NCBI RefSeq assembly: GCF_014204835.1
Contig: NZ_JACHMD010000001.1
Location: forward strand, 1,302,001-1,366,000
Direction: 5' to 3'
DNA length: 64,000 bases
Source of the DNA: Microbacterium marinum
GTDB lineage: Bacteria; Actinomycetota; Actinomycetes; Actinomycetales; Microbacteriaceae
The translations under genes and the position numbers were made by a program. Positions within the stretch are counted from its first letter, which is position 1, and each line of letters opens with the position of its first letter. Of this stretch, positions 20,645 through 52,381 are shown in pieces. The notes under the pieces were generated by a model, which did not search any database, had not been told where the DNA came from, and was given only the letters and a program-made list of their open reading frames with translations.

Positions 20645-20741
20645 GCCAAAAACGATCGTTTTCGGCCGCATCGCGTGGAAGACGCTGAAACGCCCGCCGT
20701 AAACGTGGTCCAGAACTTGGTTTCGGTAAGGGTTTTCGGCG
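20645..20741 (+). repeat. res-like repeat, copy A
   Basis: First of four copies of a dispersed element. A 22-bp near-palindrome (20645-20666, core AACGATCGTT, one mismatch) is followed by an arm at 20687-20704 (GAAACGCCCGCCGTAAAC) and its partial inverse at 20720-20737 (GTTTCGGTAAGGGTTTTC). Arm spacing is identical to copy B. The rest of 20443-20832 contains no convincing gene. Confidence 0.8.
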
Positions 20742-20832
20742 CCCAGCGGCAAGCGCCGAGGTCTCGACACGCCGGTCTCCAACGCCGCTCGCGGACGTGG
20801 AGTCGCGTAATGTGTCGGCCGCGTCCGTTTGA

Positions 20833-22217
20833 GTGGTGGTCTTTCGCTTCGTTGCGATGATCAGCTGTCGTTAGTTTAGGCGGCGGTGATCTCGGGGAGT
20901 ATCACCGCCTCGTCGATGGTGGGGGTGGTCGCGGTGAGCTCGGTCATGGAGGCTTCGGAGAAGTAGCGGCGGTCGGCGGCTTCCCATTCGTCGTGTTGCT
21001 CGACGAGGACGGAGCCGGCCAGGCGGAGCAGGGCGGCGTTGTTCGGGAACACGCCAACGACGTCGGTGCGGCGCTTGATCTCCCGATTGAGGCGTTCCAG
21101 CGGGTTCGTGGACCAGATCTGTCGCCAATGCCGGGCGGGGAACGCTTTGAACGCGAGGATGTCGTCACGGGCGTCGGTGAGCATCACGGCGGTCTTGGGG
21201 TGGACGCGCTCGATCATGCGCACGACTTCGTCGAACTGGGCATCGATGTGCTCGGCGTCGGGTTGGGCGAAGATCGTGCGGATCACGCTGGCGACCATCT
21301 CCTGCCGGCCCTTCGGGAGGGCGGTCAGGACGTTGCGCATGAAGTGGACGCGGCAGCGCTGCCAGGCGGCGCCCTGCAACACGGTCGCTGCGGCCTTCTT
21401 CAGTCCGGCGTGGGCGTCGGAGATCACCAGCTTCACCCCGCCCAGACCTCGTGTCTTCAACGAGCGCAGGAACTGCTTCCAGAACTCCTCGGTCTCGCTG
21501 TCTCCGACATCGAAGCCCAGCACGACCCGCCGCCCGTCAGCGGCGACGCCGATCGCGACGACGACCGCCTGGGACACGACACGGTGGTCGATGCGGACCT
21601 TGCAGTAGGTCGCGTCGAGGAACACGTAGGGGTAGGCGATGTCAGACAGCGAGCGGTCGCGGAACGATGCGACCTCGGCGTCGAGCCCTTGGCAGATGCG
21701 GGACACCTCGGACTTCGAGATGCCAGTGTCAGCGCCGAGCGCTTTGACGAGGTCATCGACCTTCCGGGTTGAGACGCCGTGGAGGTAGGCCTCCATCACG
21801 ACCGCGAACAAGGCTTGGTCGACCCGGCGGCGCCGCTCCAGCAGCGACGGGAAGAACGACCCCTGCCGCAACTTCGGGATCCGCAACTCCAGATCCCCAG
21901 CCGTGGTCGACAGCACCCGCGGCCGGGAACCGTTGCGGGTAGTCGTGCGCTCGCTCGTGCGCTCGTAGGGGGCGGCGCCGATGAATGCGGCTGTCTCCGC
22001 GTCGATCAGCTCCTGGTAGAGCCGCTCGGTCGCGGCTCGGATGCGGTCGGTGGTGCCGGTGAGCTTCAGTTCCCCGAGCAGCTCGAGGAGGGCAGACTGG
22101 TCAAGAGCCATCGTGCGGTGTCGTCTTTCTGTGTGAGTTCTTGGTCGTTCTCACTGACCATCGCACGATGGCTCACCCCGTCGCGGTCACGACGCCGCGG
22201 GCCCGAAAGACCACCAC
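20833..22217 (-). mobile_element. IS256-family insertion sequence
   Basis: The transposase gene is bounded by terminal inverted repeats: GTGGTGGTCTTTCG at 20833-20846 and its exact complement at 22204-22217. The element is about 1.38 kb, normal for the family. No 8-9 bp target duplication is seen at the boundaries. Confidence 0.85.
20876..22111 (-). CDS. IS256-family transposase
   Basis: A 411-residue DDE transposase of the Mutator/IS256 group. It carries FLDATYCKVRIDHR (first Asp, about 166), LVISDAHAGLKKA (second Asp, about 230), the conserved CRVHFMRNVL (C/H motif) and NPLERLNREIKRRTDVVGVFPN with the third catalytic Glu. The frame is intact, so the element is potentially active. Confidence 0.95.
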   Translation of the reverse strand: MALDQSALLELLGELKLTGTTDRIRAATERLYQELIDAETAAFIGAAPYERTSERTTTRNGSRPRVLSTTAGDLELRIPKLRQGSFFPSLLERRRRVDQALFAVVMEAYLHGVSTRKVDDLVKALGADTGISKSEVSRICQGLDAEVASFRDRSLSDIAYPYVFLDATYCKVRIDHRVVSQAVVVAIGVAADGRRVVLGFDVGDSETEEFWKQFLRSLKTRGLGGVKLVISDAHAGLKKAAATVLQGAAWQRCRVHFMRNVLTALPKGRQEMVASVIRTIFAQPDAEHIDAQFDEVVRMIERVHPKTAVMLTDARDDILAFKAFPARHWRQIWSTNPLERLNREIKRRTDVVGVFPNNAALLRLAGSVLVEQHDEWEAADRRYFSEASMTELTATTPTIDEAVILPEITAA

Positions 22218-22263
22218 CCCGCGGGACTCCAGGTAATGTGTCACGTGTTAGAGAAGTGCGCCC

Positions 22264-22297
22264 AAAATCCCGGTGAGCCCACCGGGATTTCGTTTTT
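22264..22297 (+). terminator. rho-independent terminator
   Basis: AAATCCCGGTG-agcc-CACCGGGATTT is followed by CGTTTTT: a perfect stem with a T run. Confidence 0.85.
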
Positions 22298-22305
22298 GGC
22301 GTAGC

Positions 22306-22336
22306 AAGCCGGCCCCCTCTGGGACCGGCTTTTTCT
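22306..22336 (+). terminator. second rho-independent terminator in tandem
   Basis: AAGCCGGcCCC-ctct-GGGaCCGGCTT followed by TTTCT. It lies 9 bp after the first terminator. Nothing obviously transcribed lies between the IS256 end and the pair, so they probably belong to a transcript cut off by the IS insertion. Confidence 0.8.
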
Positions 22337-22405
22337 ATGCCTTCCCGCATCGACGGTTAGGCACGCTTCGGCCACGGCCGGACACTCCGAAAAGGAGGTG
22401 GCGAG

Positions 22406-22546
22406 ATGGACCACATGGTCTACATCATCTCGGTGCCTGCGACGGTCATCACGTCGATGACCGTATTCATCTGCAAGGCCCTGCCCTTGCTGTCGGACCG
22501 CGTGAACAAGCGCGCCCGACAGCTGCAGCGCGCCAAGCGGAAGTAA
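22406..22546 (+). CDS. 46-residue hydrophobic small protein
   Basis: A 46-codon gene with a near-perfect ribosome site (AAAGGAGGTGGCGAG-ATG), the strongest SD in the region. It reads MDHMVYIISVPATVITSMTV, then FICKALPLL and a basic tail (RVNKRARQLQRAKRK). That is one transmembrane helix followed by a positively charged cytoplasmic tail. It lies after two tandem terminators and 87 bp before cmtR. No family recognised; it could be a membrane-acting peptide or a regulatory small protein. Confidence 0.65.
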   Translation: MDHMVYIISVPATVITSMTVFICKALPLLSDRVNKRARQLQRAKRK

Positions 22547-22621
22547 CTGCAGACACCAGAAAATCGCTCATACGCCACTTCCAGGGGAGAACTCTGCCCA
22601 AAAATAGGTCAGCGCCGGATG

Positions 22622-22627
22622 TATAGT
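22622..22627 (+). promoter_or_regulatory. -10 box of cmtR (leaderless transcript)
   Basis: TATAGT lies 7 bp before the ATG at 22634 with no SD between, the layout of a leaderless actinobacterial gene. No good -35 is visible. Confidence 0.55.
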
Positions 22628-22633
22628 CATTGC

Positions 22634-22992
22634 ATGCTGACTCTTGCTTCGCGTGTGGACGTCATGAACCGTCTCGGTCGGGCGATGGCTGATCCGACGC
22701 GTTCCCGGATCCTGCTGTCACTCCTGGATGCGCCTGGGTATCCGGCGGAGTTGGCGCGCGAGCTCGACCTGTCGCGTACGAATGTGTCGAACCACCTGGC
22801 GTGCTTGCGGGGGTGTGGGCTGATTGTCGCTTCCCCGGAGGGAAGACGCACGCGATATGAGGTCGCGGACCCGCATCTCGCGTTGGGCTTGCGGCAGTTG
22901 CTCGAGGCGGTCGTCGCGGTGGACAAGGGCGTGGCTTGTACGGCGGATGGGTGCGAGTGCTGCGCGCCCACCGGCTCGGCGGAAGTCGCGCA

Positions 22993-22996
<4 letters not shown>
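22634..22996 (+). CDS. cmtR: CmtR-type ArsR/SmtB metal-sensing repressor (Cd/Pb)
   Basis: A 120-residue winged-helix repressor. With the ATG at 22634 the ligands Cys57 and Cys61 (HLACLRGCGL) and Cys102 fall at exactly the residue numbers of Mycobacterium tuberculosis CmtR, which binds Cd(II) and Pb(II) there. The tail has further Cys residues (TADGCECCAP). It overlaps the P-type ATPase gene (GTGA), so it is an autoregulated repressor of the efflux operon. The start chosen gives a leaderless message; the ATG five codons upstream would place the -10 inside the coding sequence. Confidence 0.92.
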
Positions 22997-25106
<2,110 letters not shown>

Positions 25107-25110
<4 letters not shown>

Positions 25111-25361
25111 ATGTTGCGCAGGTCGTGAGTACGGTGCAGTCAGGCTGGACTTCCGCGAGCCTCATCTTCGCTCTGGCCTCGACCGCACTTCTTGCGCTCG
25201 TCCTCATTGTCGGCGTCGTCCTCATCGTGAGGTTGGCTGCTACCCAGCGTCAGGCGCCCGGGCACTCTCATGACGCTTCGTGCGACAACGACGCATCCCA
25301 GGATCAGGTCGGTGGATCGGAAGCTACTGGGCAAGGATCACCGCCGCGAACTCCGCTGTGA
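25107..25361 (+). CDS. small membrane protein after metal ATPase
   Basis: An 84-residue protein whose ATG overlaps the ATPase stop (ATGA). It has one transmembrane helix (about 18-44) and a hydrophilic tail with HSHDASCD, a possible metal-binding cluster. The tight coupling suggests it works with the ATPase, but no family was recognised. Confidence 0.6.
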
Positions 25362-25447
25362 CGGTCCCCGCTGGGGCTGTCACCTCCGTATCCTCACAGC
25401 CACTGAATCACCGAGGTCGCCGAGTACCTGAGATAACTTTGAACTAC

Positions 25448-34498: not shown

Positions 34499-35116
34499 AT
34501 GCCTCAGTCCCGAGTGACCCGCGTTATGCGAGGTCTGCTCGCGGCGTGTGTCGCGACATTCGCGGCGTTGGTGTCGCACGTCTCAGGCGGAGGTGAGGTG
34601 CCGGGTTGGGTGGGCATCCTCGTTCCCCTGGTGCTGTCTGTGGTTGTGTGCACTGTTCTTGCGGGGCGGCGCCTGTCGGCGTGGCGGCTGACGCTCGCGG
34701 TAATGGCCAGTCAATTCCTGTTCCACAACCTGTTCATCCTCGGCACGGTCTCTGCGTCCCCGATGCCGATGCGTGCGGACCGTCACATGCACGGCAGCGT
34801 CGTGATGCCTGACATGGGGATGACTGCACCGGCGTCGGTGGTCCCGCAGGACGTGTGGATGCCGATGATGCATGCGATTGCAGTGCTGGTGACGGTCGCT
34901 GCGCTGTACCGCGGTGAGCGCATGTTCAACCGGCTGCGCGAGATCGCGATGATCCTCGTTGCGTGGGTTCGTGTTCTGCTGCCCGCCCTGGTCGTGCTGC
35001 CCGTCGAGGGATGCAGTCAGTTGGTACCGGCGGCGGCTGTGCCGGTTCGGCGCAAGCGTTCTCCGTTGGTATGGTCTGCTGCTCGCCGTGGGCCGCCGCT
35101 GATTGCTGCGTTCTGA
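34499..35116 (+). CDS. Met/His-rich membrane protein of copper operon
   Basis: A 205-residue protein with about five TM helices. The loop after TM3 is rich in copper-type ligands (SPMPMRADRHMHGSVVMPDMGM, about 85-107) and another MPMMHA follows. It is the first gene of a copper cluster: this gene, CopC, PCuAC, Dyp peroxidase. I do not know a family name; the position matches that of CopD-like genes in related clusters, and copper binding is inferred from the Met/His loop. Confidence 0.75.
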   Translation: MPQSRVTRVMRGLLAACVATFAALVSHVSGGGEVPGWVGILVPLVLSVVVCTVLAGRRLSAWRLTLAVMASQFLFHNLFILGTVSASPMPMRADRHMHGSVVMPDMGMTAPASVVPQDVWMPMMHAIAVLVTVAALYRGERMFNRLREIAMILVAWVRVLLPALVVLPVEGCSQLVPAAAVPVRRKRSPLVWSAARRGPPLIAAF

Positions 35117-35232
35117 CTCCCGCCGACCGTTCCCAAGTGGTGGGCATGCTTCGGCGTTCTCTTCGCGCTTCTGGTTGAGCGCTCCTATGTCTTTTGCGCC
35201 CGGCAGTCGGGTGCCTGCGAGAGGTTTCTCGA

Positions 35233-35823
35233 ATGTCACCGTTCCGCAAATTCGCGGTCGGGGTGGCGGCAGCGGTCGTTGTTGTGTTGACGACAGCTGT
35301 CCCCGCATCGGCCCACGACGAGTTAGTGTCCAGCACTCCCGCCGTTGACGACCGTTTAGAGACGGCACCTACGGGGCTGTCATTGGAGTTTTCGGCTGAC
35401 GTGATGGAGCTGGGCGCTCTGATTATGGTCGCGGACGGGGCGGGAGGGGATTGGGCTGACGGCACCCCGACGGTTGACAGAACTTCGGTCACCATTCCCG
35501 TCACGGAAGGCATGCCTTCGGGTGGGTATGAAGTGCGGTGGCGGGTGGTATCCGCAGATGGTCACCCCATCTCCGGAGTGATCCCGTTCACTGTTGGCGA
35601 TGGGGAACCGCTAGTACGGGAACCCGCTGCAGCCGACGGCGCTGAGGTGGACGCGGGCGCAGGAAACGACGCGCAGGCAAGTCAGAACGCACAGGACATG
35701 GGCGGCATCCCACGGGTTGTCGTCATCGGTGGCATCGGCGCGGCGGTAGCTGTAGCGGTGTTTGCCCCCATACTTCTCCTTCGCCGCCGGCATGCGGCCG
35801 GCACCAGCAGCCCGGAGCAGTAA
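35233..35823 (+). CDS. copC: CopC-domain copper protein
   Basis: A 196-residue protein from ATG 35233. The signal peptide ends VPASAHDEL, giving a mature N-terminal His-Asp for copper. A CopC sandwich follows with SADGHPISG, then an acidic Ala/Gln linker and a TM anchor (about 160-185). It is the second CopC in the window; both end in membrane anchors. It lies 35 bp before the PCuAC lipoprotein gene. Confidence 0.9.
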   Translation: MSPFRKFAVGVAAAVVVVLTTAVPASAHDELVSSTPAVDDRLETAPTGLSLEFSADVMELGALIMVADGAGGDWADGTPTVDRTSVTIPVTEGMPSGGYEVRWRVVSADGHPISGVIPFTVGDGEPLVREPAAADGAEVDAGAGNDAQASQNAQDMGGIPRVVVIGGIGAAVAVAVFAPILLLRRRHAAGTSSPEQ

Positions 35824-35858
35824 GCCCGGCGCTGGAACACTCTTGAAAGGCACTTTCT

Positions 35859-36416
35859 GTGATCCCTCGCACCACTTCCACCCGTCTCGGCCTGATCCTG
35901 GCCGCGGCCGCGCTGACCCTCACCGGCTGCGCATCGACCACCCCCGGACCGGCTGCAAGCACGGACGCCGATACGGTGGTCGCTGGCGACTCGGTGTCAA
36001 TGACCGATTCGTGGGTGAAAGCTGCCGACTCGGGCATGTCCGCCGCGTTCGGTGAGCTCACCAACGACAGCAACACCGACGTGACCGTCGTATCCGCCAC
36101 TACCGAGGTGTCCTCGATGCTCGAGCTGCATGAGACGGTCGAGAACGAGAACGGCGAGATGGTGATGCGTCAGATCGAGGGTGGGTTCACCATCCCCGCC
36201 GGTGACACGCTCTCCCTCGAACCTGGCGGAAACCACATCATGATGATGGATCTCCCTGCTCCGCTTGCCGCGGGCGAGGAAGCCACCTTCATCCTCACCT
36301 TCTCCGACGACAGCACGTACGAATTCACCGCGCCGGTGAAGGACTACTCCGGCGCGAACGAGAACTATGAGGGCGGCGACATGGACATGGGCGGCGACAT
36401 GGACTCGGACGGCTGA
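35859..36416 (+). CDS. PCu(A)C-type copper chaperone lipoprotein
   Basis: A 185-residue lipoprotein (lipobox LTGC, Cys24; GTG start). The domain shows the Cu(I) site of the family: His in LELHETV, Met in MVMRQIEGG, and HIMMM (HxM). After the domain, the acidic Met-rich tail (GGDMDMGGDMDSDG) may also bind copper. It shares an ATGA overlap with the Dyp peroxidase gene. In Streptomyces lividans the equivalent ECuC works with DtpA. Confidence 0.9.
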   Translation: MIPRTTSTRLGLILAAAALTLTGCASTTPGPAASTDADTVVAGDSVSMTDSWVKAADSGMSAAFGELTNDSNTDVTVVSATTEVSSMLELHETVENENGEMVMRQIEGGFTIPAGDTLSLEPGGNHIMMMDLPAPLAAGEEATFILTFSDDSTYEFTAPVKDYSGANENYEGGDMDMGGDMDSDG

Positions 36417-37654
36417 TGAGCCCCCGCGATCGGAACGAACGACCCGGTCGTGCCGGCGCGACCCGGCGGCAGTTTCTCCTTGGAGGAGCTGTCGCCGGTG
36501 TCGGCGCTGCTGCCGCGATCGCGATCGACGCGGGCCTGAACGCCGCGGACAACACCGCCGTTCGTACGTCGGTCTCAGAACCGCTCAACGGTGACGTCAC
36601 GGTCCCGTTCTACGGCGCACATCAGGCCGGGATCGACACGGCTGCCCAAGCGCACGGACTGTTCCTCGCGTTCGACCTGCTGCCCACCACGGACCGAGAC
36701 GCGCTGCGCCGCATGATGCGGATCCTCACCGATGACGCTGCTCGCATGACGCAGGGGAAGTCGGCCCTGGCCGACTCGGAACCGGAACTCGCCGTCACCC
36801 CCTCCCGCCTCACCGTCACGTTCGGGTTCGGGCCCGGGCTGGTCGAACGAGCTGGCGGCGCCCGCCCCGGGTGGCTCGCCCCGTTACCGGCGTTTTCGAT
36901 CGACCGGCTGCAGAAGGAGTACAGCGACGGTGACCTGCTGATCCAGATCGCCGCCGACGACCCTCTCACCGTCGCCCACACCTCCCGGATGATGCTGAAA
37001 GACACCCGGAGCTTTGCCACCTTGCGGTGGTCGCAGCAAGGGTTCCGCCGTGCCCACGGGTCGGTGAAGCCGGGCACCACGATGCGGAACCTGTTTGGTC
37101 AGGTGGACGGGACCAGCAACCCCGAACCGGGCACCGCCGACTTCGACACGGTCGTGTGGAACACCACCGACGGGTGGGCAGCCGACGGCACCGGCATAGT
37201 CGTGCGGCGTATCGCGATGGACCTCGACAAGTGGGACCGGCTCGACCGGCCAGGCCGCGACCAGTCCGTGGGCCGCTACCAGTCCAACGGGGCACCGCTG
37301 ACGGGAACCGACGAGTTCGACGAACCCGACTTCACCGCGAAAACCCCAATCGGGTTCCCCGTGATCCCCGAGTTCTCCCATCTGCGCCGCTCCCGCAGCG
37401 AGAACACTGCCGAGCGAATCTTCCGCCGCGCGTTCAACTACGACGACACCCCCACGCCCGGGCAGATCTCCAACGCGGGACTCATCTTCGTGTCCTTCCA
37501 AGCCGACATCGAAAAACAGTTCACCCCGATCCAGCGCCGCCTAGACGAGCTCGACCTCCTCAACGAGTGGACCGCCCCGATCGGCTCGGCCGTCTTCGCC
37601 GCCCCGCCCGGGTGCGCCGAAGGCGGCTACATCGGCGAAACCCTCCTCACCTGA
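36416..37654 (+). CDS. Tat-exported Dyp-type heme peroxidase
   Basis: A 412-residue peroxidase with twin-arginine signal TRRQFLLGGAV (about 16-26). The Dyp signature GxxDG is FGQVDGTSNP (about 225-234). The proximal-heme His is expected in PEFSHLRRSR (about 318-327), and the C-terminal FQADIEKQFTPIQRRLDE is characteristic. It belongs to the EfeB/DtpA type and overlaps the PCuAC gene. The CopC-PCuAC-Dyp set parallels the S. lividans DtpA locus, where it supports maturation of the copper radical oxidase GlxA (recalled, not searched). No such oxidase is in the window. Confidence 0.92.
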   Translation: MSPRDRNERPGRAGATRRQFLLGGAVAGVGAAAAIAIDAGLNAADNTAVRTSVSEPLNGDVTVPFYGAHQAGIDTAAQAHGLFLAFDLLPTTDRDALRRMMRILTDDAARMTQGKSALADSEPELAVTPSRLTVTFGFGPGLVERAGGARPGWLAPLPAFSIDRLQKEYSDGDLLIQIAADDPLTVAHTSRMMLKDTRSFATLRWSQQGFRRAHGSVKPGTTMRNLFGQVDGTSNPEPGTADFDTVVWNTTDGWAADGTGIVVRRIAMDLDKWDRLDRPGRDQSVGRYQSNGAPLTGTDEFDEPDFTAKTPIGFPVIPEFSHLRRSRSENTAERIFRRAFNYDDTPTPGQISNAGLIFVSFQADIEKQFTPIQRRLDELDLLNEWTAPIGSAVFAAPPGCAEGGYIGETLLT

Positions 37655-37929: not shown

Positions 37930-37959
37930 CTCGTCCAAAAGCGAAGGCGCACCTTCTTT

Positions 37960-38055
37960 GCCGAAAACGATCGTTTACGGCTGTGCCGTGTCGAACGCGC
38001 GAGAACGCCCGCCGGAAACGCGGTTCGTAACCTTGTTTCGGCGGGCGTTTTCGGT
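37960..38055 (+). repeat. res-like repeat, copy B
   Basis: Palindrome 37960-37981 (GCCGAAAACG-AT-CGTTTACGGC), then arm GAGAACGCCCGCCGGAAAC (38001-38019) and its inverse GTTTCGGCGGGCGTTTTC (38035-38052). Arm-to-arm and palindrome-to-arm distances equal those of copy A. It ends 4 bp before the sulP stop, so it is not the promoter of a following gene. Confidence 0.85.
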
Positions 38056-38059
38056 TGGG

Positions 38060-39592
38060 TTAGTGGCTGCCGCCGAGGTTGCCGGTGAGGCGTCCGTGGA
38101 AGGCGGTGGCGGTGTCGTTGAGGCCTTCGATGTGGACGGTTTTGCCGTGGTGTTCGTACTTGGTGACGATGGCGTCGAGGGCGGCGACGGTGGAGGCGTC
38201 CCAGACGTGTGAGCGGGTCATGTCGATGATGACTCGTTCGGGGTCATCGTTGTATTCGAACTGCGTGGTCAGGTCGTTGCTGGAAGCGAAGAACAGCTCC
38301 CCGTCGACGGCGTAGTACGCGGTCGGGACGGCAGCGGTGTCGTCGACGGTGCGGGTGACGGTGACGAAGTGCGCGACGCGGCGGGCGAACATGATCATCG
38401 CGGCGATGACGCCGAGGATCACGCCGATGGCGAGGTTGTGGGTCCAGACGGTCGCGATCACGGTGATGAGCATCACGGCGGTCTCGCTCTTGGGCATCCG
38501 CTTGAGGGTGTTCATTCGGATGCTGTGCCAGTCGAACGTCGCGATCGCGACGACGATCATGACCGCGACGAGGGCGGCCATGGGGATGATGGCGACGACG
38601 TCGCCGAGGGCGAGGACCAGGACGAGGAGGAAGACGCCGGCGAGGAAGGTGGAGATGCGCGTGCGGGCGCCGGAGGCCTTCACGTTGATCATGGTCTGGC
38701 CGATCATGGCGCAACCGCCCATGCCGCCGAACGCTCCGGAGAGGACGTTCGCGACGCCCTGACCCCATGCTTCGCGGGTCTTGCGGGAGTGGGTGTCGGT
38801 GATGTCGTCGACGAGCTTCGCGGTCATGAGGGACTCGAGCAGGCCGACCACCGCCATCGCGAGGGCGTAGGGGGCGATGATCTGCAGTGTCTCGAAGGTG
38901 AGCGGCACATTCGGAATGAACAGTGCCGGCAGGCTCTCGGGGAGTTCTCCCTGGTCGCCCACGTTCGGGACAAGCCAGCCTGTCGTGACGACGACGACGG
39001 TGAGCAGCACGATCGCGACCAGCGGTGCCGGGATGATCTTGGTGAACCGGGGCATCACGAACATGATCACCAGGCCCACAGCGACCAGCGGGTACACCAG
39101 CCACGGAATGTTCGCCCCGAACAGCTGGGGGAACTGAGAGGTGAAGATGAGGATCGCCAAGGCGTTCACGAACCCGACCATCACCGACCGAGGGATGAAG
39201 CGCATCAGCTTGGCGACGCCGAGGACGGCGAACACGATCTGGATGAGCCCACCGAGGAGGACTGTCGCGATGAAGTAGTCCATCCCGTGCTCACGGGCGA
39301 CGGGTGCGATGACGAGCGCGATGGCGCCGGTCGCGGCGGTGATCATCGCGGGTCGGCCGCCGAGGAACGCGATCGCGACGGCCATCACGAACGAGGAGAA
39401 CAACCCGACGCGGGGGTCCACGCCCGCGATGATCGAGAATGCGATCGCCTCCGGGATCAGGGCAAGGGCCACAACGAGGCCGGCGAGGACTTCGCGGGTG
39501 AGGAGCTTTGGGCTGCGCAGCGCTTGCAGCACGGTGGGTTCGATTCGGTATCGCGCTTTGGTGTCGCGCGCAGGGCTGACAGCGGTCAACAT
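38060..39592 (-). CDS. SulP-family anion transporter with STAS domain
   Basis: A 510-residue transporter from ATG 39592. The N-terminal SLC26/SulP membrane domain includes [24 protein letters not shown] and [23 protein letters not shown], and there is a C-terminal STAS domain (about 410-510; [18 protein letters not shown]). Bacterial members move sulfate, bicarbonate or dicarboxylates; the substrate here is not readable. It is divergent from a MerR gene with paired direct repeats between them. Confidence 0.92.
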
Positions 39593-39714
39593 GCCTCCAT
39601 GGGTAGAGCTCTCCCTAGGAGAGCGGTCGTTGAGGGTGCGCCCGTGAGCGCGGCGCCGGATGCCCGACGCAGGAGAATGGGGGAGGGTGCTGATCGCACC
39701 CTGGAACAAACATC

Positions 39715-39750
39715 ACGTAACGTGAGAGTTCAAATGTAACGTAACGTGAG
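39715..39750. promoter_or_regulatory. paired direct repeats between sulP and merR
   Basis: ACGTAACGTGAG occurs at 39715-39726 and 39739-39750, exactly 24 bp apart, in the divergent sulP/MerR intergenic region. Each contains the near-palindrome ACGTAACGT. It is a probable binding site of the MerR regulator. Confidence 0.6.
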
Positions 39751-39783
39751 GTTTGCTGTCGAATCGGAAGGGATACGGTCGCG

Positions 39784-40152
39784 ATGGAGGAAGAGACCGC
39801 CCGTATAGGCGAGGTCACCGAGCGCACAGAGCTGTCCTCCCGGACCCTGCGTCACTATGACGAAATCGGGCTGGTCACTCCCTCCGCGCGCACCGAGGGC
39901 GGGTTCCGGCTCTACACCGAGGCCGATATCGCGCGCATCCTCCTGATCCGTCGGATGAAGCCGCTCGGGTTCACTCTCGACGAGATGAGGGAACTGCTGG
40001 ACGTTGTCGACGCCCTCGCGGCATCACCGGACGACGTCGACCTGCGGAAGCGGCTCGACGCGATCCGCGACGAAACCGCAGAGCGGCGAGAGAAGCTCAG
40101 CCGACAAGTCGCCATGGCCGACGAGTTCATGGAGCAACTCTCACAAGTCTGA
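39784..40152 (+). CDS. MerR-family transcriptional regulator
   Basis: A 122-residue regulator with the MerR winged helix (RIGEVTERTELSSRTLRHYDEIGLV; GFRLYTEADIARILLIRRM), a dimerisation coiled coil and no Cys, so it is not a metal sensor of the CueR/ZntR type. It lacks a C-terminal ligand domain. Divergent from sulP; the duplicated ACGTAACGTGAG upstream is its probable target. Confidence 0.9.
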   Translation: MEEETARIGEVTERTELSSRTLRHYDEIGLVTPSARTEGGFRLYTEADIARILLIRRMKPLGFTLDEMRELLDVVDALAASPDDVDLRKRLDAIRDETAERREKLSRQVAMADEFMEQLSQV

Positions 40153-44102: not shown

Positions 44103-44197
44103 CCTGCCGATAACGATCGTTTACGGTGCACTCGCGATAGAGGCCACGGATCGCGCGAAAAACGCACATCAGAACGTGGTTTCGGCGGGCGTTCAAT
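44103..44197 (+). repeat. res-like repeat, copy C
   Basis: Palindrome 44106-44127 (GCCGATAACG-AT-CGTTTACGGT) and arm GTTTCGGCGGGCGTT (44179-44193). The middle arm has diverged (GAAAAACGCACATCAGAAC), but the palindrome-to-last-arm distance is 52 bp against 54 in copies A and B. It lies about 95 bp upstream of the first formaldehyde-dehydrogenase-type gene. Confidence 0.8.
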
Positions 44198-44287
44198 GTC
44201 TCGCGAAGGGCTGGCGTTGTCAATGCCCTACCAGCAGGCTATCGAGGCCAGTAGGTTCTCGAGCAACACCATTTGATCGGAGTAGAC

Positions 44288-45454
44288 ATGAAAGCAGTAG
44301 TGTACGAGGGACCCCGTCAGGTCAGCACGAAGGATGTCCCGGACGCGAAGATCGAGCGACCCTCCGATGTGCTGGTCAGGGTGACGACAACGAACATCTG
44401 CGGCTCGGATCTTCACATGTACGAGGGGCGGACCTCCTTCGAGGTAGGCCGGACGTTCGGCCACGAGAACATGGGGGAGGTCATCGAGGTCGGTAGTGGT
44501 GTGGAGAAGGTCAGGGTCGGAGACCGGGTTGTGCTCCCGTTCAACATCTCGTGCGGGTTCTGTAAGAACTGCGAACGCGGCCTGACCAACTACTGCCTCA
44601 CCACCCAGCCCGACCCATCATTCGCCGGTGCGGCCTACGGGTTCGCCGACATGGGTCCCTACGGTGGTGGCCAGGCGGAACTGCTCCGTGTGCCTTTCGG
44701 TGACCACAACGCGCTGCGCTTGGGCGAGGATGCGGAGGAGAAGGAGAACGACTACGTCATGCTCTCCGACATCTTCCCCACCGGCTATCACGCCACCGAG
44801 ATGGCCGGCGTGATACCCGGCGACAGTGTTGTCATCGCCGGGGCGGGTCCGGTCGGGCTGATGGCCGCCCTGTCCGCGATGATCAAGGGCGCCGCGAAGG
44901 TGATGGTGGTCGATCGTCACCCCGACCGGCTCGCGTTGGCCGAGCAGATCGGCGCGATCGCCATCGATGACTCCAAGGTCGATCCCGTGCAAGCCGTGCT
45001 CGACGAGACGATGGGGCTGGGAGCTGACCGGGGTTGTGAATGCGTGGGTTACCAGGCCCACGATCCTCAAGGCAACGAGGACACGGCCGCTACCCTGAAC
45101 ATGCTCATCAACGCGGTGCGTTTCACCGGAGGAATCGGCACCGTCGGCGTGTTCGTCCCCCAGGACCCCGGAGGCAAGGATGACCTCGCCAAGCAGGGAA
45201 AGGCGGCCATCGACTTCGGAACGCATTGGTTCAAGGGTCAGACCATGGGGAGCGGTCAGGCCCCGGTCAAGCGGTACAACCGCCAGCTGCGGGACTTGAT
45301 CGCCGCCGGCAAGGCGACCCCTTCGTGGATCGTCTCCCACGAGATCTCGCTGGACCAGGCTGCCGATGCCTACAAGAACTTCGACGCCCGGTCCAAGGGT
45401 TGGACGAAGGTCCTCATCAAGCCCGGGATGTCGACCGAGAAGAAGACGAACTGA
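44288..45454 (+). CDS. fdhA: glutathione-independent formaldehyde dehydrogenase-type Zn alcohol dehydrogenase, copy 1
   Basis: A 388-residue Zn-MDR enzyme from ATG 44288 (CGGAG upstream). Catalytic Zn ligands are Cys38, His59 and Glu60; the structural Zn site is Cys89, 92, 95 and 103 (CGFCKNCERGLTNYC). The cofactor motif is GAGPVG, with Asp in VVDRHPDR indicating NAD. The long insert after the second domain (YQAHDPQGNEDTAATLN) is typical of FdhA/formaldehyde dismutase-like proteins. It oxidises formaldehyde or related aldehydes. Near-identical to the gene at 52,472. Confidence 0.88.
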   Translation: MKAVVYEGPRQVSTKDVPDAKIERPSDVLVRVTTTNICGSDLHMYEGRTSFEVGRTFGHENMGEVIEVGSGVEKVRVGDRVVLPFNISCGFCKNCERGLTNYCLTTQPDPSFAGAAYGFADMGPYGGGQAELLRVPFGDHNALRLGEDAEEKENDYVMLSDIFPTGYHATEMAGVIPGDSVVIAGAGPVGLMAALSAMIKGAAKVMVVDRHPDRLALAEQIGAIAIDDSKVDPVQAVLDETMGLGADRGCECVGYQAHDPQGNEDTAATLNMLINAVRFTGGIGTVGVFVPQDPGGKDDLAKQGKAAIDFGTHWFKGQTMGSGQAPVKRYNRQLRDLIAAGKATPSWIVSHEISLDQAADAYKNFDARSKGWTKVLIKPGMSTEKKTN

Positions 45455-46828: not shown

Positions 46829-46847
46829 ACCGGTCGCACCGCGACCG

Positions 46848-47180: not shown

Positions 47181-47220
47181 CCGAACCGACACCGTGTCCA
47201 CGATCAAGGGCCAAGGCCCC
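47125..47220 (+). repeat. 96-bp direct repeat, right copy
   Basis: End of the IS3-family fragment, matching 45833-45928. The sequence from 47221 to 47543 contains no gene I can support. Confidence 0.9.
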
Positions 47221-47543: not shown

Positions 47544-47855
47544 CTACGGGAGCTTGGACGCGAGGACGTCGGCCGCCAGGATCTCGGGTGCTGCGCCGAG
47601 GAGGTGCTGGTTGGCCATCAGGGCTGCGACGATGGCGCCGTTGGCGTGGGCGTCGCGAGCGGCCTCGTCGGGGAATGCATCGAAGATCCAGAAGGTGTCG
47701 GCGTGGGTCCTGACCGCGAACCAGACAATCGTTCCTACTTCTTCGTTGGCGAGTGCGACAGCGCCGGCGAGCAGATCGGCGACCGCGTCGTGCTGTCCAT
47801 CGGCCGCGACGATCTTGGCGACGAAGGCATACGGAAGTGATGCGGGTGTGGACAT
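47544..47855 (-). CDS. antibiotic biosynthesis monooxygenase (ABM)-domain protein
   Basis: A 103-residue ferredoxin-like ABM protein: YAFVAKIVAADGQHDAVADLL, TIVWFAVRTHADTFWIFDAF, DEAARDAHANGAIVAALM. It is of the YgiN/putative quinol monooxygenase type and probably acts on quinones or small aromatics without cofactor. It is divergent from the AraC-type gene at 47,963 and similar to the ABM gene at 54,206. Confidence 0.85.
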   Translation of the reverse strand: MSTPASLPYAFVAKIVAADGQHDAVADLLAGAVALANEEVGTIVWFAVRTHADTFWIFDAFPDEAARDAHANGAIVAALMANQHLLGAAPEILAADVLASKLP

Positions 47856-47962
47856 GAGGGACTCTCCTTGACGTCGGGGTTCTTCGTGGGACGAGTTCAG
47901 CGTATGACGAGCGAGGGCCGGTGGGGAGTGGCGTATACGGCAGTATTGCTACTGTTTACGTC

Positions 47963-48904
47963 ATGCGTATCGGACTGATCGCGATCGACGGCTGCTTCGG
48001 TTCGGCTATCGCGTCGATCATCGACATCGTGCGGGTGGCCGACGGAGCCCGCGGCGATGTCGACCCGCGGATCGACCCGATCGAACTCGCCATCCTCGGA
48101 CCGAAACGGCGAGTGACCACGACGGCATCGATGACCCTGTCGGTGGACCACCCGCTGTCGGAGTCCGGAGAGTTCGACGTGGTCGTCGTCCCTGCGCTTG
48201 GAACCCTTACGGCCGCCGCTACCAACGACGTCCTCCAGAGCCGAGATGCTCGTTCGGTCATCGCCTCGCTCGGGCGCCTCGACGAGGCGACCACCCGGAT
48301 CGCCGCGGCGTGCACCGGCGTGTTCGCTGTCGCCGAGACCGGCCGGATGCATCATCGGAGGGCGACGACCAGCTGGTTCCTGGGGCCGGAGTTCCTGAAG
48401 CGCTATCCGACCGTCGCCCTCGATCTCGACACCATGGTCGTGGTCGACGGGAACCTCGTCACCGCCGGCGCCGCGTTCGCCCACATCGACCTCGCGCTCT
48501 CACTCGTGCGATCGATCAGCCCCGACCTGGCCCAACATGTCGCCAAGCTCCTCATCATCGACGAGCGTCCGTCGCAGGCGGCCTTCGTCGCCTACGAACA
48601 TCTCCGGCACGAGGACCCGATCGTCGTCGAGTTCGAACGCTTCGTGCGCGCCCGCCTGGACGAACCGTTCAACGTCGCCTTCGTCGCGCAGTCGCTCGGC
48701 ACCAGCCGGCGCACCCTCGAACGACGAGTCCGTGCGGCGCTCAACCTCACTCCGCTCGGCTTCGTCCAACGGCTTCGCATCGAACGAGCTCGGCACCTCT
48801 CAGCAACCACGGACTTCACCTCCGCCGAGATCGCGCTACGGGTCGGCTACGCGAACGCCGAGACTCTGCGCTCCCTCCTGCGCAGGGAGCGACGCCGTTC
48901 CTGA
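47963..48904 (+). CDS. GlxA-type AraC-family transcriptional regulator
   Basis: A 313-residue regulator. The N-terminal DJ-1/PfpI-like domain (LIAIDGCFGSAIASIIDIVRVA; AACTGVFAVAETG, with the nucleophile-elbow Cys) is fused to a C-terminal AraC domain with two helix-turn-helices (NVAFVAQSLGTSRRTLERRV; TSAEIALRVGYANAETLRSLLRR). Start ATG 47963. It is divergent from the ABM gene, which is probably its target. Known GlxA-type relatives respond to small metabolites such as arginine or glycine betaine; the ligand here is unknown. Confidence 0.88.
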   Translation: MRIGLIAIDGCFGSAIASIIDIVRVADGARGDVDPRIDPIELAILGPKRRVTTTASMTLSVDHPLSESGEFDVVVVPALGTLTAAATNDVLQSRDARSVIASLGRLDEATTRIAAACTGVFAVAETGRMHHRRATTSWFLGPEFLKRYPTVALDLDTMVVVDGNLVTAGAAFAHIDLALSLVRSISPDLAQHVAKLLIIDERPSQAAFVAYEHLRHEDPIVVEFERFVRARLDEPFNVAFVAQSLGTSRRTLERRVRAALNLTPLGFVQRLRIERARHLSATTDFTSAEIALRVGYANAETLRSLLRRERRRS

Positions 48905-49274
48905 CCTATCGCCATGCCTGTAGCCGGTGTCCTAGCACTCGACTGGAACCACCTCTCAGCACGTCGCGTCGACGCTCCTGCGTCGCCCCTGGACGATCCA
49001 CTCGACACGCCCGCAGCACAGGTCATGTGACGTGTCCCGGCTTCCCGGACGGTCGGGGTTGGGTGGCTGTGATGTCGCTGCGTTCTCGTCGAGGGGGTCA
49101 GCAGACTCGATCAGGGTCGACTGGGATGAGACGCGAAGGCGGTCAGGTCAGGGCGGCCGAAGCCGGCCGGCGGGGTAGCGTCGGTCACGTCGAGGTCTTT
49201 CGGACGGATGGCGTAGGAACCTCCGTCGTCGGGAGACCTCGACGTCTATCTGCGGACCGACGCGCCCGGCCGAC
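48905..49274. other. intergenic stretch without recognised genes
   Basis: About 370 bp with no supportable frame. It ends in an ISL3-type terminal repeat, so it is probably a decayed transposon interior. Confidence 0.5.
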
Positions 49275-49300
49275 CTACACCCTCATCTGGGAAGAGCCCC
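49275..49300 (-). mobile_element. ISL3-type terminal inverted repeat
   Basis: CTACACCCTCATCTGG-GAAGAGCCCC; its complement matches the end at 62727-62750 (GGCTCTTCGCAGATGAGGGT...) and resembles 56301-56326. It is the right end of a lost ISL3 element. Confidence 0.7.
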
Positions 49301-49502
49301 TAAACCTTCAGCAGTCCCAACTCCTTGTGCTCGTCAGTGGTGACGCCGGCCTTGCGGCCGGAGTCGATCGCGTCCCGGTTTATCCAGTTCCGCAGACACG
49401 ACTCGCTGATCCCAAGATCACGAGCCGTCTGGCCGACGGGTTGCCCTGCGCAACGAGGTCAAGGACACGGCGCCGAAACTCCGGCGGGTGAGCAGCAGGC
49501 AT
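49300..49502 (-). pseudogene. IS3-family OrfA remnant with frameshift
   Basis: Starts MPAAHPPEFRRRVLDLVAQG, then a one-base shift is needed to continue PVGQTARDLGISESCLRNWI and DSGRKAGVTTDEHKELG before a premature stop. This is the helix-turn-helix part of an IS3/IS911 OrfA. Inactive. Confidence 0.8.
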
Positions 49503-49567
49503 TACACGGACTCCTTCCGAGACCATCATCGCCTCAACTCAGGTGTCCGGAAAAGCGGGTCAGGCTC

Positions 49568-49637
49568 CGATCGTCTATCGCGCCGCAGTGATCCTCAACG
49601 CCGTCATCGCCTGGACCCGGCAATTGTCAGACACGCC
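49568..49637 (+). mobile_element. IS5-like right-end fragment
   Basis: 70 bp exactly inverse to 51829-51898. It encodes the C-terminus IVYRAAVILNAVIAWTRQLS of an IS5-type transposase and ends in TCAGACACGCC followed by CTAG (49638-49641). Confidence 0.85.
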
Positions 49638-49664
49638 CTAGATCACGGGTGACGCTGGTGAAAA

Positions 49665-50489
49665 TCATCTCGACGTTGCAATAAGCTGCGCCCGATTGCG
49701 CGCGCCGACCTTCCGGAGAAGGTTCGACACATGGAACTTCACCGTGTTGACGGAGATGAGGAGCTCTTCCGCGATTTCGGCGTTGCGCGCTCCCGATGCG
49801 AGAAGCCGTAACACATCTCGTTCGCGCATGGAGAGTTGTGAGAATTGCGGAAGTGGCTCGGGTTCCGCCGGCGGATCGAGGGGGAGCCGGATGTCGACTG
49901 AGGACCCCCAGCCGGGTGTTGAGGAGACCGCAATCGCGCCGTCGAGGGCTGTGACGCGTTCGACGATTGGCCGGATCGAGTCGTCGTGTGCGGAAAGTTC
50001 GCCGGCCCCGTCATCTCGGATGCCGATCAGGAGATTTAGGCCGTCGCAGTCCCACTGGATGCGCACCCGCCGAGCCTCGCTGCGATCCGCGAATGCGAGC
50101 ACCGAGCTGCGGACGATGGCCCGCGCCGCGTGCGCGACCTCCCCTGGGAGTGCCCGACCGGTCGCGGGCGGCTCAACGAACTGCACGTCGAGATCGCCGA
50201 ACCGGACGAGGGGGAGCAGGTCGCTCTGCAGTCGGGCGAACGCACCGACGACGGGTTCGAGGATGCTGCTGCGTTCCTGATCGGTGACAGCGCGCAGCCC
50301 GATCAAGGCGCTCGTTGCCGCCTCGATCGCCATGTTGCGTGCTGCGCGGTCATCGAGGCGGGGCGATCGCAGAAGCGCGAGTATAGATTCGAGCGTGATC
50401 GCGTGCCGGTCAGCATGCTCGGCGACGATTCGGGCGTGGTCGGCGACATGCTGACGTGACGCGGGCGACGCCAGTTCGGTGAGGTCCAC
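49665..50489 (-). CDS. LuxR-type regulator fused to a GHKL ATPase-like domain
   Basis: A 274-residue protein (GTG start). Residues about 100-205 resemble a histidine-kinase ATPase domain (VAHAARAIVRSSVLAFADRS, LLIGIRDDGAGE, STPGWGSSVDIRLPLD). Residues 215-274 are a LuxR/NarL helix-turn-helix (LSMRERDVLRLLASGARNAE, then ISVNTVKFHVSNLL). No receiver or phospho-acceptor His is obvious. It is divergent from hxlB, with nested dyads in the 100-bp gap, so it probably regulates the hxl genes, perhaps in response to formaldehyde or a sugar phosphate. Confidence 0.85.
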   Translation of the reverse strand: MDLTELASPASRQHVADHARIVAEHADRHAITLESILALLRSPRLDDRAARNMAIEAATSALIGLRAVTDQERSSILEPVVGAFARLQSDLLPLVRFGDLDVQFVEPPATGRALPGEVAHAARAIVRSSVLAFADRSEARRVRIQWDCDGLNLLIGIRDDGAGELSAHDDSIRPIVERVTALDGAIAVSSTPGWGSSVDIRLPLDPPAEPEPLPQFSQLSMRERDVLRLLASGARNAEIAEELLISVNTVKFHVSNLLRKVGARNRAQLIATSR

Positions 50490-50496
50490 GGTGACA

Positions 50497-50534
50497 ACCT
50501 ACCCACTCAGGTAGGCCCATGCCTACGGGTAGGT
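50497..50534. promoter_or_regulatory. nested dyads between LuxR gene and hxlB
   Basis: Outer dyad ACCTACCC ... GGGTAGGT (50497-50534) encloses an inner dyad GTAGGC-ccat-GCCTAC (50511-50526). They are centred between the divergent starts and are candidate sites for the LuxR-type protein. Confidence 0.6.
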
Positions 50535-50589
50535 GGCCCTGCTCCTTTGCGGGGGGGCCAAAGCGGCCGACGGCCGTGAGGATAGGGCG

Positions 50590-51168
50590 ATGGATGTCCT
50601 CGAAATCGGTGTGGGCAACTCGCTCAGCCGCATTGCCCGCGAACTCGAACTCGCAACCGACAGACTGATCGCTCGCGACCGGGCGGAATTGGCGGAGCTC
50701 GCGGATATCGTCGGCGCTGCTCCGCGAGTCTTCGTGCTGGGTGCAGGCCGATCGGGGCTCGCGCTGCGAATGACCGCGATGCGACTCATGCATCTTGGCC
50801 TGGCCGTCCACGTCGTCGGGGAGGTCACCGCTCCTGCGATCGAACCAGGTGACTTGCTCCTCGCTGCCAGCGGTTCCGGAACGACGGGCGGGATCGTGCG
50901 CGCGGCACAGACTGCCGTCGATGCTGGCGCCCGGGTGGCGGCTGTTACAACAGTCCCAGACTCTCCGCTTGCAACGCTGGCCGCCGTCACGGTAGTCGTG
51001 CCGGCTGCCGGCAAGCTTGATCGCTCTGAAGCGGCATCTGAGCAGTATGCCGGCAGTCTCTTCGAGCAATTGGTCGTTGTTCTCGGCGACGCGCTTTTCC
51101 ACACACTCTGGCGCCGCTCCGGCTTGACCGCTGATGAGCTCTGGCCTCGCCACGCAAATCTCGAATGA
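50590..51168 (+). CDS. hxlB: 6-phospho-3-hexuloisomerase
   Basis: A 192-residue SIS-domain isomerase: VFVLGAGRSGLALRMTAMRL, HVVGEVTAPAI, LLLAASGSGTTGGIVRAAQTA, and the C-terminal ASEQYAGSLFEQLVVVLGDA, all typical of HxlB/PHI. It converts hexulose-6-phosphate to fructose-6-phosphate, the second step of the ribulose-monophosphate route for formaldehyde. It is 28 bp upstream of hxlA. Confidence 0.93.
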   Translation: MDVLEIGVGNSLSRIARELELATDRLIARDRAELAELADIVGAAPRVFVLGAGRSGLALRMTAMRLMHLGLAVHVVGEVTAPAIEPGDLLLAASGSGTTGGIVRAAQTAVDAGARVAAVTTVPDSPLATLAAVTVVVPAAGKLDRSEAASEQYAGSLFEQLVVVLGDALFHTLWRRSGLTADELWPRHANLE

Positions 51169-51196
51169 CGCAAACCACTGCACGAAAGGAATCCAA

Positions 51197-51820
51197 ATGA
51201 AACTGCAGTTTGCCATGGACACCCTCTCCACCGAGGCCGCCCTCGAACTCGCTGCTGCTGCCGCGCCGCACGTCGACATCCTCGAGCTCGGTACCCCGCT
51301 TATCAAGAGTGCTGGCCTTTCGGTGATTACCGCGATCAAGCAGGCCCACCCCGACAAGGTCGTCTTCGCCGACCTCAAGACGATGGATGCCGGCGAGCTC
51401 GAGGCTGATATTGCCTTCACTGCGGGTGCCGATCTCGTGACGGTCCTCGGCTGCGCCGGTGACAGCACGATTGCCGGTGCTGTGAAGGCGGCGAAGAAGC
51501 ACGGTAAGGGCGTTGTCGTCGATCTCATCGGCGTGAGCGACAAGGCGAAGCGTGCGAAAGAGGTCGTAGCACTTGGAGCAGAGTTCGTCGAGATGCACGC
51601 GGGCCTCGACGAGCAGGCCGAAGAGGGCTTCACCTTTGCCACCCTGCTCGAGGACGGCAAAGCTTCTGGCGTGCCGTTCTCAGTCGCAGGCGGCATCAAT
51701 AGCTCGACGATCGCTTCGGTGCAGGAATCTGGTGCGCAGGTGGCTGTGGCAGGAGGCGCGATCTACGGCGCTCCCGATGTCGGTGCTGCCGCCGCGGAAC
51801 TCCGTGCAGCCATCGTCTGA
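51197..51820 (+). CDS. hxlA: 3-hexulose-6-phosphate synthase
   Basis: A 207-residue OMPDC-superfamily enzyme from ATG 51197 (GAAAGGA upstream). The active site DLKTMDAG (D-x-K-x-x-D) is intact, along with DILELGTPLIKSAG, the VEMHAGLDEQ strand and the phosphate-binding VAGGIN and AVAGGAIYG. It condenses formaldehyde with ribulose-5-phosphate. With hxlB it can fix or detoxify formaldehyde released by neighbouring oxidases. The stop is 4 bp from an IS5-like element. Confidence 0.95.
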   Translation: MKLQFAMDTLSTEAALELAAAAAPHVDILELGTPLIKSAGLSVITAIKQAHPDKVVFADLKTMDAGELEADIAFTAGADLVTVLGCAGDSTIAGAVKAAKKHGKGVVVDLIGVSDKAKRAKEVVALGAEFVEMHAGLDEQAEEGFTFATLLEDGKASGVPFSVAGGINSSTIASVQESGAQVAVAGGAIYGAPDVGAAAAELRAAIV

Positions 51821-51828
51821 CGACCTAG

Positions 51829-52193
51829 GGCGTGTCTGACAATTGCCGGGTCCAGGCGATGACGGCGTTGAGGATCACTGCGGCGCGATAGACGATCGCA
51901 TGCTTGTCGTTGTGGGTGGCGAGTCCACGCCATTGCTTGAGGTGGCAGTAGTGGCGCTCGATGACGTTGCGGCCCTTGTAGTCGGCGGCATCGAACCCGA
52001 CGGGTCGTCCGCCGCTTGACCGGCGGCGCTTGCGGTGGCCTTACTAGTCGGATGGTTCGGGGATCACGGCCTTGATGCCGCGGGCGCGCAGGTGCCCGCG
52101 GATCGCGCGGGATGAGTACGCCTTGTCGCCGCGGATCGCCGAGACACGATCAGAGTCTCTCAGCGAGCCGCCGATCTATTTCTCAGACACGCC
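51829..52193 (-). mobile_element. internally deleted IS5-like element (365 bp) with target duplication
   Basis: Both ends carry the repeat GGCGTGTCTGA/TCAGACACGCC and are flanked by CTAG (51825-51828 and 52194-52197), the YTAR-type target duplication of the IS5 group. Inside, on the minus strand, is a C-terminal transposase piece (AIRGHLRARGIKAVIPEPSD, then two in-frame stops, then GHRKRRRSSGGRPVGFDAADY, ending in VIAWTRQLSDTP). The N-terminal half is deleted, so it is non-autonomous. Confidence 0.88.
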
Positions 52194-52286
52194 CTAGGTA
52201 TACAACTACTTTCCACCTGAGCAGACCTTTCCGATGCCCACTCCCGGCGGAATGGCCGCTCCGAGTCAGGTGGGCAGGTCGCGTCC

Positions 52287-52381
52287 CCTGCCGTAAACGA
52301 TCGTTTACGGTGCACTCGCGATAGAGGCCACGGATCGCGCCGAAAACGCACATCAGAAGGTGGTTTCGGCGGGCGTTCAAT
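52287..52381 (+). repeat. res-like repeat, copy D
   Basis: Palindrome 52291-52310 is perfect over 20 bp (CCGTAAACGATCGTTTACGG). The last arm is GTTTCGGCGGGCGTT at 52363-52377. Same layout and orientation as copy C. Confidence 0.85.

Follow-up and report, generated by a model that had tools for sequence, protein, structure and literature searches.

Comparison of four repeats in a 64,000-nucleotide stretch of Microbacterium marinum DNA (the window; G000:C1:1302001-1366000, from a genome, G000, assembled as a single contig of 3.12 Mb) makes it likely that these repeats, here named A to D, are the recombination sites of a gene-cassette system based on a serine resolvase, in which the gene blocks of about 0.6 to 10 kb lying between two sites would be the cassettes. 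The first-pass annotation of this DNA had suggested a res-like site at which metabolic cassettes are added or swapped, with the resolvase encoded at 63315, here named R1, as candidate enzyme. The crossover palindrome, the accessory arms and the exchange of cassettes at the palindrome found support in our comparisons, but the proposed enzyme did not; the cognate enzyme is probably R2, a small serine recombinase encoded just past the window, and not R1.

Each site, roughly 100 bp long, consists of a 20- to 22-bp palindrome (CCGWAAACGATCGTTTWCGG) followed at fixed spacing by an inverted pair of double arms. In the consensus, some 26 variable bases separate GCCGNAAACGATCGTTTNCGGC from GCCGNAAACGTNCNCCGGAAC, which a short loop connects to GTTTCGGCAGGCGTTTTCGGC, and the parts are variants of a single half-site, GCCGNAAAC. 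As expected of a res site, crossover site I is an inverted repeat, CCGWAAACG-AT-CGTTTWCGG, around a central AT that is presumably the dinucleotide cleaved, and accessory half-sites of the same motif stand at fixed, helically phased distances from it. These lie at +44 (>), +57 (>), +67 (<) and +80 (<) bp from the palindrome centre, positions pooled over seven mapped cassette-type sites, in which not all half-sites pass the scan each time.

All four copies are at the places first described and in one orientation (+ strand), and AACGATCGTT occurs exactly four times in the window, once per copy. Site A (20643-20742, 74 bits) has its crossover palindrome, CCAAAAACGATCGTTTTCGG, at 20646-20665 and its accessory arms at 20689-20742. 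In site B (37959-38059, 81 bits) the palindrome is at 37961-37980 and the arms, at 38004-38059, abut the 3' end of a SulP gene, in agreement with the earlier remark that copy B sits at a gene 3' end. Site C (44104-44193, 53 bits) has its palindrome at 44107-44126, and site D (52288-52377, 64 bits) has a perfect 20-bp palindrome at 52291-52310. The bit scores come from a profile of 20 full sites, with A, B and D in the training set and C outside it. The near-constant spacing claimed for the copies holds, D having its half-sites 2 bp closer (42, 65), and the layout of a palindrome plus two arms is real in all four, although the left arm is degenerate in C and D. What did not hold is that each copy marks a separate change of gene content: a segment of 1.4 kb that includes an alcohol dehydrogenase (ADH) gene is duplicated at 99.4-99.5% identity, with C at the head of one copy and D at the head of the other, so that the two represent one duplicated cassette and not independent junctions. 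A further site, E, lies just past the window at G000:1366111 (window position 64111).

Recombination at the palindrome is strongly supported by the positions at which related loci cease to match. We compared 54 loci from 28 genomes chosen for the site or the enzyme (117 palindromes in 903 kb; reversed pattern, 0), using BLAST blocks of at least 93% identity and at least 400 bp. Of 63 internal block ends, 31 were no more than 25 bp from a palindrome centre in each of the two partners, and 14 of the 31 unique boundaries were at a palindrome (random-position p=0.0066; binomial 7e-23). Five shared blocks, representing four different cassettes of 2.1-7.5 kb, were bounded by palindromes at both ends: one of 2.1 kb in this genome and G281, one of 4.2 kb in two pairings, one of 7.5 kb and one of 7.0 kb. 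In the shared flank of the 31 junction pairs, 127-130 of 130 bases matched in 27 pairs (120, 121, 126 and 84 in the other four), against 23-67 of 130 in the other flank. The first mismatch on the unshared side was at -2 in one pair, at -4 in three and at -6 to -12 in 27; a flank switch with mismatches as near as -2 therefore places the exchange in the middle of the palindrome. The first junction comparison included the duplicate records L184, L220 and L238, which were removed from later runs, while G413 (L210, titled as an Acidobacteria metagenome-assembled genome and probably mis-binned) was kept in the junction, array and R2-genome counts.

These junctions also bear on whether the repeat might be a regulatory or terminator element travelling passively on horizontally transferred islands. 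Many sites are intergenic, with arms that make up an inverted repeat close to the ends of genes, yet such an element does not predict that unrelated flanks switch at the palindrome centre while the other flank is 98-100% identical in 27 of the 31 pairs, and we give this explanation almost no credence. Palindromes with arms on both sides (L069:8829 in G296 and L326:4152 in G407), and some others without recognisable cassette-type arms, may be the reciprocal products of occasional recombination between symmetric palindromes in inverted alignment.

R2 is encoded at G000:1367351-1367917, just past the window, and at L074:7511-8155. It is 31-36% identical to R1, and its closest sequences in PDB are the DNA invertase 4m6f (6.7e-29), which we take to be Gin, and then gamma-delta resolvase (4.5e-13). 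Among 58 R2 loci of named genomes, 33 have a palindrome upstream of the gene at a distance of at most 2.2 kb, with none in the reversed control (0/58), which ties this res site to a resolvase gene. More specifically, in 11 of the 12 closest relatives the palindrome stands 45-62 bp before the matched start; where it is farther upstream, a Fic module can intervene, as seen in this genome. The half-sites of the R2 res follow the cassette half-site motif in two spacing classes (pooled over loci, in which not all half-sites pass the scan each time): 65/78/94/114 in eleven close relatives, whose 114 arm is shared by four distal sites, and 54/67/83/103 in most of the remaining distal sites. The first arms, at 44 in cassettes and at 54 or 65 in the R2 res, are thus separated by steps of about one helical turn. 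Comparison of loci in this way establishes, at the level of DNA sequence, modular exchange at the palindrome, the linkage between R2 and the site and a common half-site code. Strong sites and R2 also co-occur across genomes (6/13 versus 15/385, p=1.4e-5, Fisher test), in a table counted by hand and biased by model training and by an R2 query, both drawn from array genomes.

R1 (63315-63896, + strand, Pfam PF00239) has position in its favour, as the gene ends 215 bp from the palindrome of site E, which lies downstream of it, and the second R1 gene of this genome starts about 100 bp from another full site, P. Among family homologues the association disappears: the palindrome is near 1 of 30 R1 loci, compared with 10 of 30 for R2, and that single locus is this second R1 gene (the R1 of the window is outside the 30). 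Site E, moreover, leads on to Fic and R2, and with an identity to R2 of only about one third, R1 is a very improbable candidate for the enzyme.

At E<=1e-60, R2 was found on 24 PLSDB plasmids, and on at least 6 of these the match overlaps a Fic or VbhA gene; no phage record matched at 1e-60. On two Microbacterium plasmids, NZ_CP012699.1 (L343 ~421-5340) and NZ_CP089591.1 (L344 ~2458-5400), an annotated recombinase, a Mu-type transposase and an AAA ATPase lie beside the Fic module, where no intact palindrome is left on either. We take these genes to be Tn402/Tn5053-like. Transposons of the Tn5053/Tn402 group are cited as 'res hunters' in PMC12217951, and by analogy the apparent landing of such an element in the palindrome suggests that the R2 site may be a true res.

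The plasmid distribution of R2 would also suit a rival account, in which plasmid resolvases use the repeats simply as their normal res sites, and the blocks are scars left by occasional exchange in cointegrates or between plasmids, with no dedicated cassette function. A 'shuffling function' of resolvases has already been proposed (Kholodii 2001, as cited in PMC9501444 and PMC12217951). We consider this by-product account possible but doubtful, since the full sites have a uniform arm layout unlike the R2 arms, lie at gene 3' ends, form same-oriented arrays and are present in genomes with no full resolvase match (G281, G258, G296); single-event scars are therefore a poor account of them. Of the 28 genomes examined, 20 yielded full sites, 63 in all (52 distinct). 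Where a gene lies within 600 bp on the arm side, the closest one has its 3' end at the arms in 37 of 47 cases, as in an integron array, while genes on the palindrome side have no preference (27/48 end there), gene calls being made by a simple composition score and not curated. Neighbouring full sites within 10 kb have the same orientation in 22 of 25 cases, a count over all 63 sites, not the 52 distinct ones, in which arrays common to several genomes enter each time.

The content of the arrays recurs as units, blocks of metal-resistance and metabolic genes that soil bacteria have exchanged. L067 (G281) and L072 (G258), from different genera, both hold two single-gene segments of 0.77 kb and a MerR/SulP segment of 2.33 kb, each closed by a site at a gene 3' end. 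In nine clusters of cassettes, the copies agree exactly or almost exactly in their length from palindrome to palindrome, including 2331 bp (three copies), 4198-4199 bp (three), 2098-2099 bp (two) and 7512/7516 bp; the exception is one copy of 7256 versus 5615 bp. The 4.2-kb cassette, which encodes ArsR, a P-type ATPase and a cadmium transporter, adjoins one P-type-ATPase cassette in Microbacterium sp. H83 (L316) and another in Microbacterium sp. CH12i (L318), and lies directly against the R2 res in M. oleivorans P10 (L320; R2 position from L192). Cassettes directly adjoin the R2 res in L325 and L314 as well. In G281 and G258 the 2331-bp MerR/SulP cassette has a 0.77-kb cassette as its neighbour, and in M. 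esteraromaticum (L317) it adjoins the P-type-ATPase cassette of 7.5 kb; the pair of SulP and metal cassettes was found on no PLSDB record down to 80%. A flank, X, that is joined to the R2 res in G075 is joined to the cassette array in G281 and G258 (99.9% over 0.9 kb), and it is this exchange of partners that gives the R2 res the logic of a platform.

Several observations weigh against a resolvase-based cassette system with R2 as its enzyme. Seventeen of the 31 unique breakpoints fall away from palindromes: for three of them the nearest palindrome is 74-98 bp off in both partners, for two only one of the partners breaks at a palindrome, and the remainder lie elsewhere. An earlier junction run, with R2 backbone loci included and a 20-bp limit, placed only 7 of 91 ends at palindromes, most of the others falling between related R2 loci; in the 31/63 run the R2 loci L184-L241 were left out, 20 new array loci were added, the limit was 25 bp and block settings were changed. 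By the criterion used, 25 of the 58 R2 loci have no palindrome, and the twelfth of the close relatives, L191 (L191:1-130), has the R2 gene and intact arms with other sequence in the place of the palindrome, which suggests that its site I was replaced or lost. The arms of cassettes are arranged > > < < and those of R2 > > > <. R2 is absent or fragmentary in the array genomes G281, G258 and G296, where no full resolvase was found, so that it would have to act there in trans or to have been lost; in this genome, a 103-residue R2 fragment, 94% identical to the R2 of L074, lies about 14 kb past the second array. The active-site residues of gamma-delta resolvase are S10, R8, R45, D67, R68 and R71, and R2 has the motifs YARVS and LDR, but the arginine aligned with R71 is Gly in 41 of 42 readable R2 open reading frames (ORFs; 16 of the 58 loci gave none by the filter), which from the alignment appears to be an unusual active site for a serine resolvase. 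Classical resolvases, in addition, favour intramolecular deletion. Finally, genomes were picked for the site or for R2, so the frequencies given here are not population estimates, and the second array of this genome is followed, about 1.7 kb after its last site, by a phage-type tyrosine integrase gene (PF00589; domain match G000:2898465-2899061; ORF L045:11922-13139, genome 2897922-2899139).

That integrase raises the question whether the palindrome is the core of a tyrosine-recombinase site, either XerC/XerD dif-like or of a phage-type integrase, which would make the repeats relatives of the Acinetobacter pdif modules, their nearest functional parallel. The palindrome can be read as two arms around a 6-bp centre, and PF00589 genes, whether Xer or other, are present in 14 of 14 genomes checked. 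With such genes in every genome checked, strong sites nevertheless occur in only 13 of 398 family genomes. Across eight array genomes no PF00589 gene other than the integrase at G000:2898465 comes within 10 kb of any strong site listed. No linked IntI emerged, and we read this single integrase as probably incidental. The region upstream of R2 carries the same site, and one junction has its first mismatch at -2, inside what would be a 6-bp overlap. Taken with these points, a tyrosine recombinase is an unlikely agent.

We return to the proposed serine-resolvase cassette system and to its standing among known ones. Like integrons, it has sites at gene 3' ends, arrays in one orientation, a recombinase-linked platform site unlike the cassette sites, and cassettes without a recombinase. 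Unlike in integrons, the linked enzyme is a small serine resolvase and not the tyrosine integrase IntI, the crossover site is a symmetric duplex palindrome, and the cassettes are often multi-gene, some with their own regulators; it works like an integron but is not to be filed as one. The attC sites of integrons undergo recombination as folded single strands. The R2 res resembles those of Tn3/gamma-delta and Sin in combining a palindromic site I with phased accessory half-sites, with an accessory layout that differs from sites II/III of Tn3. It differs from Sin and Tn3/gamma-delta in its many dispersed cassette sites, which go beyond resolution alone, and in the missing R71-equivalent arginine of R2. 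The pdif sites have XerC/XerD cores of 11+6+11, often in alternating orientation and without accessory arms; the like orientation of 22 of 25 neighbouring sites here speaks against such a module. In common with the pdif/dif modules of Acinetobacter (e.g. PMC6449649 and PMC13141974), the present system has modules of adaptive genes that are flanked by short sites for recombination and occur on plasmids as well as chromosomes; it is set apart by its arms, its mostly uniform orientation and its associated serine resolvase. Direct-repeat accessory half-sites also occur in Sin site II, according to a passage of PMC9943657. The exchange of plasmid segments at res sites by resolvases is likewise known from resolvase 'shuffling' and CinH-RS2, for which the relevant part of PMC9501444 describes neither stand-alone cassettes with a uniform site nor arrays. 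Among the papers listed in searches of the open-licence PMC literature were integrons, pdif modules and resolvase work and no serine-resolvase cassette arrays; some of the mechanism may already be contained in the work of Kholodii 2001 on shuffling by resolvases.

The site is patchy in its distribution, in keeping with mobile DNA. When as many as 3 mismatches are allowed, the 20-mer CCGAAAACGATCGTTTTCGG occurs at 16 places in this genome (reversed pattern, 0), which besides A-D are at 0.52, 1.37, 2.59, 2.885-2.897 and 3.105-3.108 Mb. The exact sequence CCGNAAACGATCGTTTNCGG is present in 12 of 299 family genomes (9 of 85 genera), with none for the reversed control in the rows listed. A 103-position sequence model built from 23 sites matched 72 of 398 family genomes at E<=0.01, mostly weakly, the weak matches not being counted as sites, and 13 of 398 at E<=2.2e-9. 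In an order-wide draw, 9 of 396 genomes matched at 1e-6, seven of this genus (this genome included) and two weakly from other families. Sites from 7 array genomes served to train the profile and sites from 8 to train the model, and one of these genomes, G075, also supplied the R2 query; rediscovery of array genomes is not independent, because the model was partly trained on them. Among 17 R2-bearing genomes, none of them in training, 9 had model matches at E<=1e-9, these genomes having been reached via 18 of the 58 R2 loci, most of which were preselected for showing a palindrome. No plasmid copy of site D was matched. The search of the Microbacteriaceae for the consensus that the first-pass annotation had proposed thus turned out in its favour, with a patchy site that abuts variable gene blocks and is linked to a recombinase, R2. 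Neither of the contrary outcomes it had named was found: the copies keep no fixed position ahead of conserved genes, and no known transposon has the repeat as its end.

In the window, a Mutator-family (IS256-like) transposase gene (20876-22111, - strand; Pfam PF00872, 1.1e-134) lies between site A and its cassette genes. We considered whether the repeat is an insertion sequence (IS) end and rejected this, as the IS is a separate element that starts 134 bp past the A arms. A known-transposon end was also rejected: B, C and D adjoin SulP and ADH, not transposases, and different cassettes share the site yet form separate sequence clusters. The site A cassette encodes an ArsR-family regulator and a P-type ATPase (22619-25110, +; Pfam and blastp), both 63% identical to the proteins of the 4.2-kb cassette in L316 (blastp). 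A Dyp-peroxidase operon (34499-37654, +; Pfam PF04261/PF20628) occupies the palindrome side of site B, and its homologues adjoin a site in L081 (G056). The site B cassette (38060-40152; Pfam) comprises SulP (38060-39709, -) and MerR (39784-40152, +), with protein identities of 89% and 70%, respectively, to those of M. esteraromaticum (L317); its homologues form the 2331-bp cassette in three other genomes. ADH-like zinc dehydrogenases are encoded at 44273-45454 (+; Pfam) in cassette C, where the duplication ends at about 45495, and at 52457-53638 (+; Pfam) in cassette D. Downstream of ADH in D follows a DJ-1/PfpI protein (53550-54209, +; Pfam), of which C has only the start. The junction of site D and ADH recurs in Microbacterium sp. 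H83 (L315:6694-8044), with DNA 94% identical up to the palindrome and ADH 98% identical. Within the C-D interval, a 77-nt inverted repeat, 99% complementary and 2.2 kb apart (49568-49644 and 51822-51898), possibly marks the ends of a separate insertion element.

Past the window, site E is followed by a Fic-domain gene with R2 directly behind it (L043:6502-7966 = genome 1366501-1367965), suggesting a plasmid-maintenance-like module that is now chromosomal. A 106-bp left-flank match and the right flank are 38 bp apart in the relative G836 and 1.9 kb apart in G799, whereas the same flanks are about 49 kb apart here (window ~18007 to genome 1369227); the array is therefore part of an acquired island. 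No tRNA was found at the island edges, in window 16000-21000 or in L043.

To account for these observations, we propose that the sites are recombined at the palindrome centre by R2, which is found both on plasmids of actinobacteria and in integrated islands, so that cassettes could be excised, joined and swapped. R2 dimers would bind site I and the accessory half-sites, two sites would synapse, and double-strand exchange would take place at the central AT. Sites in like orientation would excise the intervening segment as a one-site circle, and such a circle, or a plasmid, could be captured at another site, the R2 res included. The R2 res, which immediately precedes either the resolvase gene or a Fic toxin-antitoxin pair, would be the platform where cassettes accumulate. 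In the window, A would then head an ArsR/P-type ATPase cassette, B the MerR/SulP cassette, and C and D the ADH cassettes, with the array ending at the R2 res, the Fic module and R2. Catalysis by R2, strand exchange, synapsis, circle intermediates and steering by orientation and arms are what we infer from this arrangement. The role of the accessory arms in insertion versus excision is directly testable, because the cassette site and the R2 site differ by helical-turn spacing.

In conclusion, it is about an even question whether these repeats represent a third, independently evolved class of cassettes besides integrons and pdif modules: a serine-recombinase 'integron', with the res of a plasmid resolvase as platform and cassettes bearing a distinct, shorter res-like site at the 3' end, that spreads metal-resistance and metabolic genes through the Microbacteriaceae. 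There is a real chance that the system deserves a class of its own. If this is true, gene-cassette capture would have evolved with unrelated recombinase chemistry, and a search motif and a candidate enzyme would be at hand for a mobile gene pool tied to no integron or transposon. It also makes testable how a resolvase, normally a deletion machine, supports the gain of cassettes, and could explain how these actinobacteria suddenly acquired genes for heavy-metal ATPases, cadmium transporters and anion transporters.

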